From contig NZ_VLNY01000004.1 of the NCBI RefSeq assembly GCF_008297975.1, positions 372,001-436,000 of the forward strand: a stretch of DNA of 64,000 nucleotides. Direction: 5' to 3'. This document shows, in pieces, positions 2,206-34,980 of the stretch. Origin of the DNA: Antrihabitans cavernicola. GTDB lineage: Bacteria; Actinomycetota; Actinomycetes; Mycobacteriales; Mycobacteriaceae. The notes below the pieces were generated by a model. It was not told the origin of the DNA. It ran no database searches and saw nothing but the letters and a program-made list of their open reading frames with translations. Made by a program: the position numbers and the translations under genes. Each line of letters opens with the position of its first letter. Positions within the stretch are counted from its first letter, which is position 1.

Positions 2206-2499
2206 ATGGGGATCACAGTGATTGTCGACTGCAATGAATGCGCCGTCAGGGACATCGCATGCCGGGATTGCGTAGTGACGGTTTTGCTCGGTGAACCGAC
2301 GATGCGGGAGCGGACCGAGGTCCGCCCCGACCCACGACGGCGCGTCACCCGTATTGACCAGGAAGAACAAGACGCTATCGATGCACTCGCAGACATCGGT
2401 TTGGTGCCTCGGCTGCGGCTGGTACGCACACGCGTTCCCCAGGTCGCCGACCAGATAACGGCCGCCACCGATTCCTGTGAGCCCCGTCGCATCAGTTGA
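2206..2499 (+). CDS. Small twin-CxxC protein, unknown function
   Basis: A 97-residue protein starting MGITVIVDCNECAVRDIACR. It has two closely spaced cysteine pairs, C10-x-x-C13 and C20-x-x-C23, followed by DCVVTVLLG; this could bind one metal or form two redox pairs. The rest is charged (RTEVRPDPRRR) with a predicted helical middle (QEEQDAIDALADIGLV). I recall similar short cysteine proteins in other mycolata near NlpC/P60 genes but cannot name a family. A GGAG abuts the ATG at 2206, and a GTG at 2218 is an alternative that keeps all four cysteines. It is transcribed toward the riboswitch and NlpC/P60 gene and ends about 115 bases before the aptamer. Function is unknown. Confidence 0.65.
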   Translation: MGITVIVDCNECAVRDIACRDCVVTVLLGEPTMRERTEVRPDPRRRVTRIDQEEQDAIDALADIGLVPRLRLVRTRVPQVADQITAATDSCEPRRIS

Positions 2500-2614
2500 A
2501 ACGGCAAATCGCCAGGTGGGTTCACCTGGGCTTCAGTCGATAGACACAAGCTGAGACCGCTTCGTAACCTTTTCGAGACATTGCGGAGTCTGCTGCACCA
2601 CCCGGTGCGGCATC

Positions 2615-2770
2615 GCGTGTCACCGCTTAATCGGATTGCTCGCAAGGGCAACCGAGCCGGGAACCCAAGTACATCTGGGGTGAATCCCAACGGATCGCAC
2701 TAGCGAAACCGATGGGTAGGGCTGATCTTCCCAGCCCGAACCCATCAGCTAACTCGGCATGCGGATGATC
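2615..2770 (+). ncRNA. Cyclic-di-AMP riboswitch (ydaO/yuaA class)
   Basis: The stretch carries the conserved blocks of the ydaO aptamer in order: CCGCTTAATC (2623-2632), GAGCCGGGAACCCA (2654-2667), GGGGTGAATCC, GGGTAGGGCTG, and CCGAACCCATCAGCTAACTC followed by GGCATGCGG. CCGC at 2623-2626 can pair with GCGG at 2761-2764 as the closing P1 helix. Ligand-bound ydaO riboswitches are known OFF switches and in actinobacteria commonly control cell-wall hydrolase and resuscitation genes, which fits the NlpC/P60 gene next to it. P1 ends only about 28 bases before the GTG start and I see no intrinsic terminator in that gap, so the expression platform may act on ribosome access. Confidence 0.93.
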
Positions 2771-2792
2771 GGAAGAATGGAGTACCAGTCTC

Positions 2793-3368
2793 GTGGCGTC
2801 CCTCATCTCTCATCGTCCCGTCCGTCGTGCGGCCATCGCCGGCGCTGTCGCGCTCGGCGCCCTCGTCATCCCGGCGGCACCGGCTTTCGCACAACCCGTC
2901 AGCATTCCCGGCGTCGGCACCTTCGACGTTCCGGATGCGCCTGGCATCCCCTCGATCTCCAACTTCCCCGTTCCGGCTCCGCCGACGCCGTTCGCTGCTC
3001 CGACGCCGTTCGCTGCTCCGACTTCGAGTGCTGCGCAGCAGGCTGCTGCCGCCGCAGAGAGCAAGATCGGCTCGCCGTACGTCTACGGCGCCGCCGGCCC
3101 GAATGCGTTCGACTGCTCCGGACTGGTCCAGTGGGCCTTCAAGCAGGCCGGCCTGAGCGTGCCGCGTACCAGCGAGGCCCAGGCGTCCGCCGGTATCCCC
3201 GTCTCGCAGGCTGACCTGCAGGTCGGCGACATCATCTCCTTCTACGGTGGCGGCCACTCCGGCATCTACGTCGGCAACGGCAATGTCGTCCACGCTGCGA
3301 CCGAGGGCACCCCGGTGCAGATCGCGTCGATGGCGTCCATGCCGTACAACGGTGCACGTCGCATCTAG
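2793..3368 (+). CDS. Secreted NlpC/P60 peptidoglycan endopeptidase (RipB/RipD-like)
   Basis: A 191-residue exported protein with a Sec signal peptide (RRAAIAGAVALGALVIPA, likely cleaved after AFA at about residue 31). A Pro/Ala linker with a duplicated TPFAAP element follows, then a C-terminal NlpC/P60 domain (about 90-191). The catalytic triad is visible: C108 in FDCSGLVQW, H155 in GHSGIYVG and H167 in NVVHAA. Such enzymes cleave D-Glu-mDAP bonds in stem peptides and help daughter-cell separation. The GTG at 2793 is used because it lets the signal peptide begin at the basic residues; GGAG lies 11 bases upstream. Expression is probably set by c-di-AMP through the riboswitch just upstream. A strong terminator isolates it from the larger paralogue downstream. 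Confidence 0.9.
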   Translation: MASLISHRPVRRAAIAGAVALGALVIPAAPAFAQPVSIPGVGTFDVPDAPGIPSISNFPVPAPPTPFAAPTPFAAPTSSAAQQAAAAAESKIGSPYVYGAAGPNAFDCSGLVQWAFKQAGLSVPRTSEAQASAGIPVSQADLQVGDIISFYGGGHSGIYVGNGNVVHAATEGTPVQIASMASMPYNGARRI

Positions 3369-3388
3369 TTTTCGCCCAGATGGGTAGG

Positions 3389-3429
3389 AAAAAGGGGCGG
3401 GTCGATTTACTCGAATCGCCCCTTTTTTC
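3389..3429 (+). terminator. Intrinsic terminator after the small NlpC/P60 gene
   Basis: GGGGCG at 3394-3399 pairs with CGCCCC at 3418-3423, and inner TCGA/TCGA arms enclose a TTTAC loop. A run of six T follows and a run of A precedes, so it could act in both directions. Confidence 0.85.
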
Positions 3430-3626
3430 TGTACTTTGTCCCCGTTTCCGCGACGTCTCCGGCTCGAAACCGGGCAAAGAGACCGAATCGTGGCTCGGCT
3501 GGACATGAACGTATGCCATTCCGTAACCTGACCGAGACCTTGCAGGTTGTCGGCGTCGAGATACACAGCTGACGACCAGTCCGCAGGGCCCCAATCTTCC
3601 AGCGGAGGAAACGGAGACGACTGTCC

Positions 3627-4682
3627 GTGGCGTCACTACGATCGAAACGTTCCGTCGGCGGGGTGTGTGCTGTCGCCGTGTTGTCGATCGCACTTGCCGC
3701 GACACCGGCAAGTCCTGCCGCCGCCGACCCCGTCGCGCTGCCGAGTAACGCTACCGAAGCGATGCAGCGGCTCACCGACCTTTCGCGCCAGTCCGAGCAG
3801 ACCAACGAGGCGTTGAACAAGGCCAAGGTCGACGCAGACCAGAAGGCCGCGCAAGAGCGCGACGCCGAGGGCAAGCAGGCCGCCGATCAGGCTGCCGTCG
3901 ACGCCGCCAAAGCCAAGGTCGCGCAGTTCCAACCTGCTGTCGACCGTATTGCGGTGGCGACCTATCAGGGGGCTCGACCCAACCGGCTGTTCTCCGTGCT
4001 CCTCAGCGACTCGCCGCAGCAGCTGCTCGACCAGATGTCCGCGCTGGACGTGATCTCGTCCGAGACCGCGGCGAAGGTCGACCAGTACAAGCAGGCGACA
4101 GCTGCCGCATCCGCGGCTGAAGACGCGTCACGCAAATCGGCCGACGCGGCCCGCAGCATCGCCGATCAGGCCAATGCGGTCAACGCGGATCTGCAGAAGA
4201 AGCAGGGCGACCTGCAGGCGCAGATCGCCGAGGTCACGCAGGCGTGGGCCAAATTGTCCGGCAGCGAGCAGTCGATGCTCGCGGGCACTCCGTTCCCTCC
4301 CGGATTCGATCCGAGCATTCTGCTCAAGGGTCTGTCGGGCAGCGGTGCGGGCGCGCTCCAGGCCGGGTTGACCAGGATCGGCGACCCGTACGTTTGGGGT
4401 GCGACCGGTCCCAACCAGTTCGACTGCTCCGGGTTGGTGCAGTGGGCATACAAGCAGATCGGCAAGAATCTCCCGCGCACGAGCGAGGCGCAAGCGGCGG
4501 GCGGAATTCCGGTGTCGCGAGATCAGCTGGAGCCGGGCGACGTCGTGCTCTTCTACCCCGACGCTTCGCATGTCGGCATCTACGCAGGCAACGGAAACGT
4601 GTTGCACGCCTCGACGTTCGGTGTCCCGGTCAAGGTTGCGCCGATGGGTGACATGCCCTTCTACGGCGCACGCCGATACTGA
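3627..4682 (+). CDS. ripC: NlpC/P60 peptidoglycan endopeptidase with coiled-coil N-terminus (RipC-like)
   Basis: A 351-residue exported hydrolase. A signal peptide (cleavage near PAAADP, about residue 36) leads into a long Ala/Gln/Lys-rich coiled coil (about 45-200). A short linker and a C-terminal NlpC/P60 domain from about residue 250 follow. The active-site residues are C267 (FDCSGLVQW), H315 (SHVGIY) and H327 (NVLHAS). Coiled coil plus NlpC/P60 is the RipC (Rv2190c) plan; family knowledge says the coiled coil is held inactive until engaged by FtsEX. The gene keeps its Rv2190c position between the nuclease and pimB'. Start is GTG at 3627. The hydrolase domain is very similar to that of the smaller neighbour, pointing to duplication. 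Confidence 0.9.
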   Translation: MASLRSKRSVGGVCAVAVLSIALAATPASPAAADPVALPSNATEAMQRLTDLSRQSEQTNEALNKAKVDADQKAAQERDAEGKQAADQAAVDAAKAKVAQFQPAVDRIAVATYQGARPNRLFSVLLSDSPQQLLDQMSALDVISSETAAKVDQYKQATAAASAAEDASRKSADAARSIADQANAVNADLQKKQGDLQAQIAEVTQAWAKLSGSEQSMLAGTPFPPGFDPSILLKGLSGSGAGALQAGLTRIGDPYVWGATGPNQFDCSGLVQWAYKQIGKNLPRTSEAQAAGGIPVSRDQLEPGDVVLFYPDASHVGIYAGNGNVLHASTFGVPVKVAPMGDMPFYGARRY

Positions 4683-4699: not shown

Positions 4700-6088
4700 A
4701 TTTCCTCGCAGGAGCCTGCGCCGTCGGATCCGAAACGGCGTCCGATCACGCGGCGTCCGATCAAAGGCTGGGAAGCCGCGGCGATCGTCGGGTTGATCCT
4801 TGCGGTTGCCATTGCCCTCGGCGTCTATCTGGTGCGTCCGCAGGAATCGGACGACGCCGGTGCGGCACCGTCGAGCAGCGCCGCGCCGGTCGGCAACGTC
4901 TACGAGGATCAGCGTCGCGCAGGAGTACAACGGCTGCTCGACCGGTGGGCAGCTGCAATTCGTTCCGGAAACACTGCCGCTCTCACCCAACTGGTCGATC
5001 CCCGGGCGGCACCGGAATTTCTCGAAGCGGAGGTGCGTCGGGCTCAGAACCTGTCGGGGGTGCCTATCTCGGATTGGGGATTCGAGATAGGCGATGAGCC
5101 GGACGTCACCATCGCTCCGGATGTCGCGGATCGACTGGGCGCATCCGATGTGTGGGCACCGCCCGTATATCTGCGCTATGCGATTGCAGGTCCGGACGCG
5201 GCACCGACCCGCAAACCGGTCGGGCTGACCGTCGCACGGCACGGCGACGACTGGAAGCTGGTATCGGATACGGATGAGCCGACGCGCCCCACCTGGCGCG
5301 GCCCGTGGGATTTCGCGCCGATGATCGCGGTGACGGTGCCGACAGGCAACGGCAAGTCGTCGGTGGTGCTCGGTCATCCCGAGCAGCGTGCGCAAGTGGA
5401 CAAGTTGGCCGCCGAGGTTCGCGACGCCGTCCCCGCCGTGACCTCGTTGTGGGGACCGAACTGGGCGCAATCGGTGTTGGTGATAGCCACGTCGAGTCAC
5501 GACGAGTTCGTCGATCTCGCAGGCAGCGATCACAGCGGCTCCGAGGTGGCAGCGGTGGCGGTGTCGGATGCGGTGGCACCCGGTGCGACGACGGCGACCG
5601 GGCAACGGGTCGTGTTCAGCCCGGATGCTGCGGAGCGATTGACCGATGCAACGCGACGCTCGGTCCTGCGCCACGAGATGACGCATGTCGCGACCCGCGC
5701 GAGCACGGTCGACGGATCGCCGATGTGGATGCTCGAGGGCTTCGCCGACTACTCCGGCTACCGCAACTCGGGAATACCGTTTCAACAGATCGCGCCGGAG
5801 GTCACTCAGTTCGCGCGCGCGAACGGCCCGCCGAACTCGTTGCCCGCCGACAGTGCCTTCGGCGCCGACGACGACCGCGCCAAGATCGCCTACGAGCTCG
5901 GCTGGTCGGCCTGCGCGTACATTGCCGCGACCTTCGGCGAGCCCAAGCTGGTCGAACTCTACAAACGGCTGGCGAAGGGTCCCGTCGACGACGCCGGTGT
6001 CGATGCCGCGATGCGTGACGTGATTCAACTCGGCAAAACCGACTTCGTCGCCCGCTGGGGCGGCTGGGTGGCCACTCAGGTGCGGTGA
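4700..6088 (+). CDS. Membrane-anchored HExxH metallopeptidase-like protein
   Basis: The protein has a basic cytoplasmic N-terminus (PKRRPITRRPIKGW), one membrane segment (about 25-45), and a large extracytoplasmic part. That part ends in a zinc site H325-E-M-T-H329 with a downstream E346 in LEGFADY, the pattern of gluzincin peptidases. The substrate is unknown; position next to cell-wall hydrolases fits a surface or wall role. The start is a problem. The frame opens after a stop at 4691 and the only conventional start is TTG 4793, which removes the basic region and cuts into the membrane segment. An ATT at 4700 directly after GGGAGGA, one base from ATG, gives a sensible 462-residue protein and is used here. 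It ends by overlapping the pimB' leader at 6088. Confidence 0.75.
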   Translation: MSSQEPAPSDPKRRPITRRPIKGWEAAAIVGLILAVAIALGVYLVRPQESDDAGAAPSSSAAPVGNVYEDQRRAGVQRLLDRWAAAIRSGNTAALTQLVDPRAAPEFLEAEVRRAQNLSGVPISDWGFEIGDEPDVTIAPDVADRLGASDVWAPPVYLRYAIAGPDAAPTRKPVGLTVARHGDDWKLVSDTDEPTRPTWRGPWDFAPMIAVTVPTGNGKSSVVLGHPEQRAQVDKLAAEVRDAVPAVTSLWGPNWAQSVLVIATSSHDEFVDLAGSDHSGSEVAAVAVSDAVAPGATTATGQRVVFSPDAAERLTDATRRSVLRHEMTHVATRASTVDGSPMWMLEGFADYSGYRNSGIPFQQIAPEVTQFARANGPPNSLPADSAFGADDDRAKIAYELGWSACAYIAATFGEPKLVELYKRLAKGPVDDAGVDAAMRDVIQLGKTDFVARWGGWVATQVR

Positions 6089-34799: not shown

Positions 34800-34980
34800 G
34801 CCGCCCCACACGTCAGGCGAGTGCCGCGAGGCCTCTGCCCGACGGGACCCTGACGCTCTTCCCCAGCGCCAGGTTCCCCGATCGGACAGGGACCCCGCGG
34901 CATTCGCACCCACCGATCACCGCACTGCACATCGCGGCAACCGCAACGGCCAGCGACTCACGTAGGACCCGGAGGTAGAG

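Follow-up and report, generated by a model that had tools for sequence, protein, structure and literature searches.

In C. glutamicum the nlpC gene carries a c-di-AMP riboswitch for which Reich et al. (2023) report, in the available sections of PMC9960051, that more c-di-AMP leads to less reporter fluorescence while the transcript is unchanged, and that in an artificial operon behind this riboswitch the second gene is unaffected. The same sections propose a pseudoknot between a CTCC of the aptamer and the GGAG of the ribosome-binding site (PMC9960051). C. glutamicum nlpC is also a target of MtrA, the site of which is described in the accessible portion of PMC3353115 as a direct repeat of two 8 bp halves with 3 bp between them. 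A pseudoknot is likewise mentioned for the crystallised T. tengcongensis ydaO aptamer in the part of PMC5393176 drawn on here, where the loop is printed as ACUCCUUCG (also as CUCCUUCG) and the tail as CGAAGGAG; as printed, loop and tail are complementary. In the open-licence literature, as far as its available sections go, translational action is described for the C. glutamicum nlpC c-di-AMP riboswitch only, with the mechanism left as a suggestion. We found no comparative test of pseudoknot covariation in the open-licence literature. Below, the window means the whole 64,000-nucleotide stretch of Antrihabitans cavernicola DNA that was analysed; coordinates refer to it, and the features of the locus lie on its + strand.

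The riboswitch and the two hydrolase genes

An Rfam covariance search of the 64 kb (both strands, 4227 families) placed a c-di-AMP (ydaO/yuaA) riboswitch aptamer, RF00379, at 2614..2779. The match scores 68.5 bits, above the gathering score of 38 (E 8.9e-14), and its alignment covers model positions 1-134 of 134. An earlier note on this DNA had assigned the leader to the ydaO class and proposed a search with this very model; the significant match over the full model length bears out the assignment, and the coordinates then suggested, 2615-2820, were essentially right, the element proper being 2614-2795. Within the closing helix, P1, the covariance alignment pairs C2624 with G2763, G2625 with C2762 and C2626 with G2761, to which C2623-G2764 can be added by eye. 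A U-U mismatch, U2627 opposite U2760, adjoins the helix on its inner side. From P1 to the GTG at 2793 there are 28 nt (2765-2792), as the note had estimated for the distance between the closing helix and the start. The gene that follows the riboswitch encodes a small NlpC/P60 cell-wall hydrolase of 191 aa (2793..3368; PF00877, 77.9 bits), and its GTG is the first ATG/GTG/TTG of the open frame. By eye, the N-terminus is signal-peptide-like. Upstream of the riboswitch is a 97-aa open frame at 2206-2499 without a Pfam match, parts of which match at the same place in four related loci (L114, L118, L120 and L121).

The window copy presumably binds c-di-AMP. A diadenylate cyclase (DAC) domain is encoded by a single gene of this genome, in a 385-aa frame, and there are two DHHA1 matches, one of them inside a 339-aa frame. 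It also contains two further c-di-AMP riboswitches, ~34 kb apart on their contig, which precede another NlpC/P60 gene (L001) and an Rpf gene (L003), both identified by motif word. At least one c-di-AMP riboswitch was found in 52 of the 61 genomes of a sample of relatives, this genome counted.

Downstream of the small gene lies a second, larger NlpC/P60 hydrolase gene (3627..4682, 351 aa; PF00877, 85 bits), the product of which we take to be RipC-like. Between the two genes our own script finds an intrinsic terminator, a stem-loop followed by a T run at 3392..3431, which is unlisted by a consensus scan of 2450-3700; the larger paralogue therefore stands apart behind a terminator, as had been claimed. 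Each gene is also preceded by an MtrA-box-like direct repeat found by pattern matching: C-GTAACCTT-TTC-GAGACATT at 2563..2582, upstream of the riboswitch, and a second copy at 3522..3541, ahead of the larger gene, where there is no aptamer match. The 5.66 Mb genome contains the repeat CGTAAYCTNNNYGAGAC in exact form just twice, at window positions 2563-2579 and 3522-3538. A relaxed form of it precedes the first gene in all 16 of the chosen loci and the second gene in 10 of 14, and is conserved across genera. If these are true MtrA sites, MtrA input would be common to both hydrolase genes and c-di-AMP input would act on the first alone. The consensus scan of 2450-3700 gave no sigma-70 promoter, a consensus that says little for an actinobacterium.

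The 16 loci compared, the window and L114-L128, were picked for a riboswitch before a similar gene, so they are uninformative on how often the locus lacks one. In 14 of them (the window and L114-L126) the riboswitch is followed by the small and then by the large hydrolase gene, and a strong terminator-like stem separates the two hydrolase genes in four of these 14 (the window, L114, L120 and L125). L127 and L128, the other two, lack the small gene, and their riboswitch immediately precedes the orthologue of the larger gene. The product of this orthologue has 45% and 49% identity to that of the window over its match, and the genes behind it are related to the next two of the window. The switch thus stands, in these loci, before the first hydrolase gene, whichever that is. 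The expectation that only the small hydrolase would respond to c-di-AMP accordingly fits the layout of the window and fails as a rule for the family, with two of 16 loci having the riboswitch on the larger gene.

A relict aptamer before the larger hydrolase gene was considered and rejected: CAGCTGAC, CTTCC and GGAGGAAACGGAG are present there in the wrong order, and no Rfam match reaches the gathering score. The leader of that gene (3590-3626), also without an aptamer match, contains CTTCCAGCGGAGG, which may form a small hairpin across a purine-rich stretch that resembles an SD. Further downstream, the gene at 4793 has a Peptidase_MA_2 match under the cut-off (27.5 vs 32.4 bits), on which the word 'peptidase' rests, and the gene at 6085 is presumably a glycosyltransferase. 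Elsewhere in the window an mraW RNA motif (RF01746) is found at 34813-34915 (70.4 bits).

Loop-tail pairing and the ribosome-binding site

The loop of an aptamer hairpin, UCUUCC (2726..2731), and a stretch of the 3' tail, GGAAGA (2771..2776), were identified by loop-tail comparison as the 5' and 3' strands of a candidate pseudoknot, and form a 6-bp complement. Taken alone this complement is not significant, being matched by 16.5% of shuffled tails, and the same holds for most single loci: 5% or fewer of the shuffled tails reach a locus's own score in just 9 of 103 loci (median 17%). We therefore turn to the comparison across loci. Of 124 aptamer matches, 103 were used, the three of this genome and 100 fetched, with the other 21 left out; the aptamers used comprise 66 of the 67 matches in the window's family and 37 of the 57 in the order's other families. 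The mean loop-tail helix score of the 103 aptamers was 15.38 with their own tails and 13.48 with permuted tails (maximum 14.48), and none of 5000 permutations reached the observed mean, with some residual relatedness among loci remaining in this and the following permutation tests. For the 15 loci with neither of the common loop words the means were 15.43 and 11.46 (0 of 20000), and when each genus contributed a single locus per class (69 loci), three draws gave 0 of 5000 each. Split by aptamer words into classes of 60 and 43, a division that differs from the gene classes used below, the Rpf-like class alone gave 0 of 5000 and the NlpC-like class 12 of 5000, the latter because CUUCC/GGAAG is common to most of its members.

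Clear examples of a loop and tail that have changed in concert are CUUUCUG/CAGAAAG (L105), CAGCC/GGCUG (L095), CCGAC/GUCGG (L111 and L113), CACUC/GAGUG (L069 and L072) and UUGUGUCC/GGAUACAA (L026). Two loci score under the median of their loop with other tails: L022, a same-genus orthologue with the four pairs UUCC/GGAA, and L089, the tail of which is shortened by a false start. The expected loop-tail helix is visibly not the one that scores best in L017, L019, L041, L112, L080 and L089. Overall, loop and tail vary in step across genera, and as a sequence pattern this is strong across the 103 loci.

The pairing strand lies close to the ribosome-binding site. In the window the Shine-Dalgarno (SD) sequence is called as GGAG at 2779..2782, 2 nt past the pseudoknot strand and 10 nt ahead of the GTG. 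Starts, sought 18-77 nt past CAGCTxAC, and SD sequences were called automatically in the relatives, and a start was called in 99 of the 103 loci (L027, L080, L086 and L108 were dropped), 48 of them of NlpC type, 32 of Rpf type and 19 other by motif words in the ~800 nt downstream. With this automatic calling, 95 of 99 loci have an SD that overlaps the pseudoknot strand or begins no more than 6 nt past it, a nearness that is partly expected since the loop-tail segments are short and purine-rich. Two arrangements can be told apart. Of the 32 Rpf-type loci, 28 have a strand that shares at least 3 nt with the SD; of the 48 NlpC-type loci, 36 have GGAAG in the strand, and in 28 of these 36 the SD starts at a distance of -2 to +5 nt from the end of the GGAAG strand. 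Since SD and strand lie so close in 95 of 99 loci, a single structure may serve as both aptamer and expression platform.

All 99 loci with a called start have it 23-42 nt (median 38) past CAGCTxAC; in the window this distance is 39 nt. An intrinsic terminator in this interval was rejected: the consensus scan of 2450-3700 found none between aptamer and start, its one match being a weak one at 3351, and a T-rich stretch (8 nt with 6 or more T) occurs there in 0 of 99 loci, the window included. This agrees with the absence of a normal terminator before the GTG that the earlier note had read from the letters. A terminator of the usual kind would hardly fit into so short an interval, and the folded aptamer may be its own expression platform.

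Proposed mode of action and its alternatives

We consider it fairly probable that the leader 2614-2792 is a c-di-AMP riboswitch that acts as a translational OFF switch for the small NlpC/P60 hydrolase gene through a pseudoknot at the SD. With c-di-AMP bound, P1 and the loop-tail pseudoknot (2726-2731 with 2771-2776) would be held together, and the folded aptamer, ending 2 nt ahead of the SD GGAG (2779-2782), would exclude the 30S subunit. The exclusion would have to be steric, since the NlpC-type strand usually leaves the SD uncovered. In the absence of ligand the tail would be freed and the small hydrolase gene translated, and the larger paralogue, with its own promoter-type element and a preceding terminator, would stay outside the control of the switch. 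The computed support for this scheme consists of the aptamer match, the failure to find a terminator before the start, the covarying loop and tail of the relatives, the proximity of the SD, the terminator between the genes, the second MtrA-like element and the DAC gene. We infer that in A. cavernicola the leader binds its ligand, is switched OFF by it and then keeps the ribosome away sterically.

A c-di-AMP switch could also act on transcription or mRNA survival, the bound and untranslated leader being exposed to Rho or RNases. Effects on the transcript are described for related riboswitches in the available parts of two papers: a pde mutant of M. smegmatis has less rpfA transcript (PMC9338955), and early termination is reported for Streptomyces rpfA (PMC10117811). 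The accessible sections of Reich et al. themselves give less transcript from a riboswitch-bearing construct, an effect that is independent of c-di-AMP (PMC9960051). By the same source the C. glutamicum nlpC transcript stays constant with c-di-AMP and a downstream reporter is unaffected, and the Streptomyces switch is cited there as regulated independently of Rho (PMC9960051); the lack of an intrinsic terminator in the consensus scan and across the 99 loci likewise argues against this explanation, which we regard as unlikely. The earlier note had left control at translation or via Rho as alternatives. Translational control is better supported than Rho control, because C. glutamicum nlpC shows an effect on protein and not on transcript (PMC9960051, sections as above) and because of the SD positions in 95 of 99 loci.

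The window copy has an oddity in its core. We defined the conserved core as 41 columns of our own alignment, each conserved in 93% or more of the 103 aptamers; the window aptamer agrees in 39 of the 41, the deviations being A2744 and U2760. Position 2744, directly before UCAGCUAAC, is G in the other 102 of the 103 aptamers. When 301 genomes of the family were searched with a pattern permitting A or G at the equivalent position, G was found in 136 of 137 matches and the lone A was the window's. A scan for the A form in context over 84,980 species' genomes, possibly omitting records close to the window's own genome, returned one other record, a Microbispora MAG with what by eye is an aptamer-like stretch ahead of an ATG. 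When the RNA is folded without the pseudoknot, U2713 is the partner of A2744, within an extended alternative hairpin. It is possible that A2744 is a single-base assembly error.

If A2744 is taken at face value, its occurrence in the window alone in both the 103 aptamers and the 137 pattern matches, together with the U2627-U2760 mismatch within P1, would fit a drifting aptamer whose response to c-di-AMP is altered or lost, and six others have no deviation over the 41 columns (L022, L049 and L056, from the same genus and the same locus, and the further aptamers checked, L024, L046 and L052). This we hold to be improbable: the score of 68.5 bits is well inside the 26 to 93 bits spanned by the relatives, the loop-tail complement is still there, and the odd base may be the assembly error just mentioned. 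Two or more deviations in conserved columns are moreover present in 22 of the 103 aptamers, the window among them, and on that count we rejected the view of the window copy as an outlier in aptamer quality. A little less probable again is the reading that the binding core has varied naturally, with A2744 for the near-invariant G and the inner U-U mismatch of P1 shifting its sensitivity or ligand preference. Were that so, the small hydrolase would leave the c-di-AMP circuit or differ in threshold from the other two copies, and one cell would hold a natural multi-threshold system.

Pseudoknot-free folding gives no open ligand-free state, as the 3' strand of P1, the tail and the SD bases 2779-2781 are predicted to pair with the first codons. 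Such folding, taken alone, speaks against an open ligand-free state; for the leader as a whole it is indecisive because it ignores pseudoknots. We think it very improbable that this hairpin of the P1 3' side, SD and first codons, and not the pseudoknot, is the on/off element, since the calculation that suggests it (an MFE fold of 2607-2830 pairing 2761-2769/2812-2819, 2771-2776/2806-2810 and 2779-2781/2799-2801, z -2.06, equalled by 7 of 200 shuffles, with unpaired probabilities of 0.21, 0.05, 0.24 and 0.57 at 2779-2782) leaves out both pseudoknot and ligand.

Comparison with known systems

Two described groups share the aptamer class. B. subtilis ydaO/kimA and T. tengcongensis ydaO have the same class of aptamer, and the T. 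tengcongensis RNA has a loop-tail complement like that of the window (PMC5393176, accessible portion); B. subtilis ydaO, as cited in the available text of PMC9960051, differs in having a terminator stem-loop before a potassium importer gene. The rpfA riboswitches of Streptomyces and mycobacteria have this class of aptamer before cell-wall hydrolase genes, and a copy of the Rpf type is present in this genome as well (L003). At Rpf-type loci, unlike the window, the pseudoknot strand lies mostly over the SD, and for Streptomyces and M. smegmatis rpfA the available parts of PMC10117811 and PMC9338955 report effects on the transcript. The Rpf and NlpC/P60 layouts thus stand side by side within one genome.

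The likeness to cg2402/nlpC of C. glutamicum (RSnlpC) extends further. As described in the available sections of PMC9960051, RSnlpC resembles the window in RNA class, kind of gene and lack of a canonical terminator; it has an upstream MtrA site where the window has a candidate one, and its neighbours, a second nlpC-type gene and a glycosyltransferase, are also like those of the window; it is an OFF switch with reporter evidence for action at translation (PMC9960051). The C. glutamicum MtrA box has the 8+3+8 spacing common to the candidate repeats of the window, in which the second half is GAGACATT or GAGACCTT as against (A/G)TAACAAT in C. glutamicum (PMC3353115, accessible portion). By presumed orthology the window locus is apparently the same locus as C. 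glutamicum nlpC. Two differences stand out against the available text of PMC9960051: in C. glutamicum both hydrolase genes belong to one seven-gene operon, whereas in the window they are separated by a terminator and a second MtrA-like element, and the proposed C. glutamicum pseudoknot covers the ribosome-binding site, whereas the window strand precedes the SD. The riboswitch class, the translational mode and, apparently, the locus are therefore already known. What is added here is a test of the pseudoknot by comparison of many loci, together with the two placements of its strand with respect to the SD, evidence that makes the pseudoknot suggested for C. glutamicum testable.
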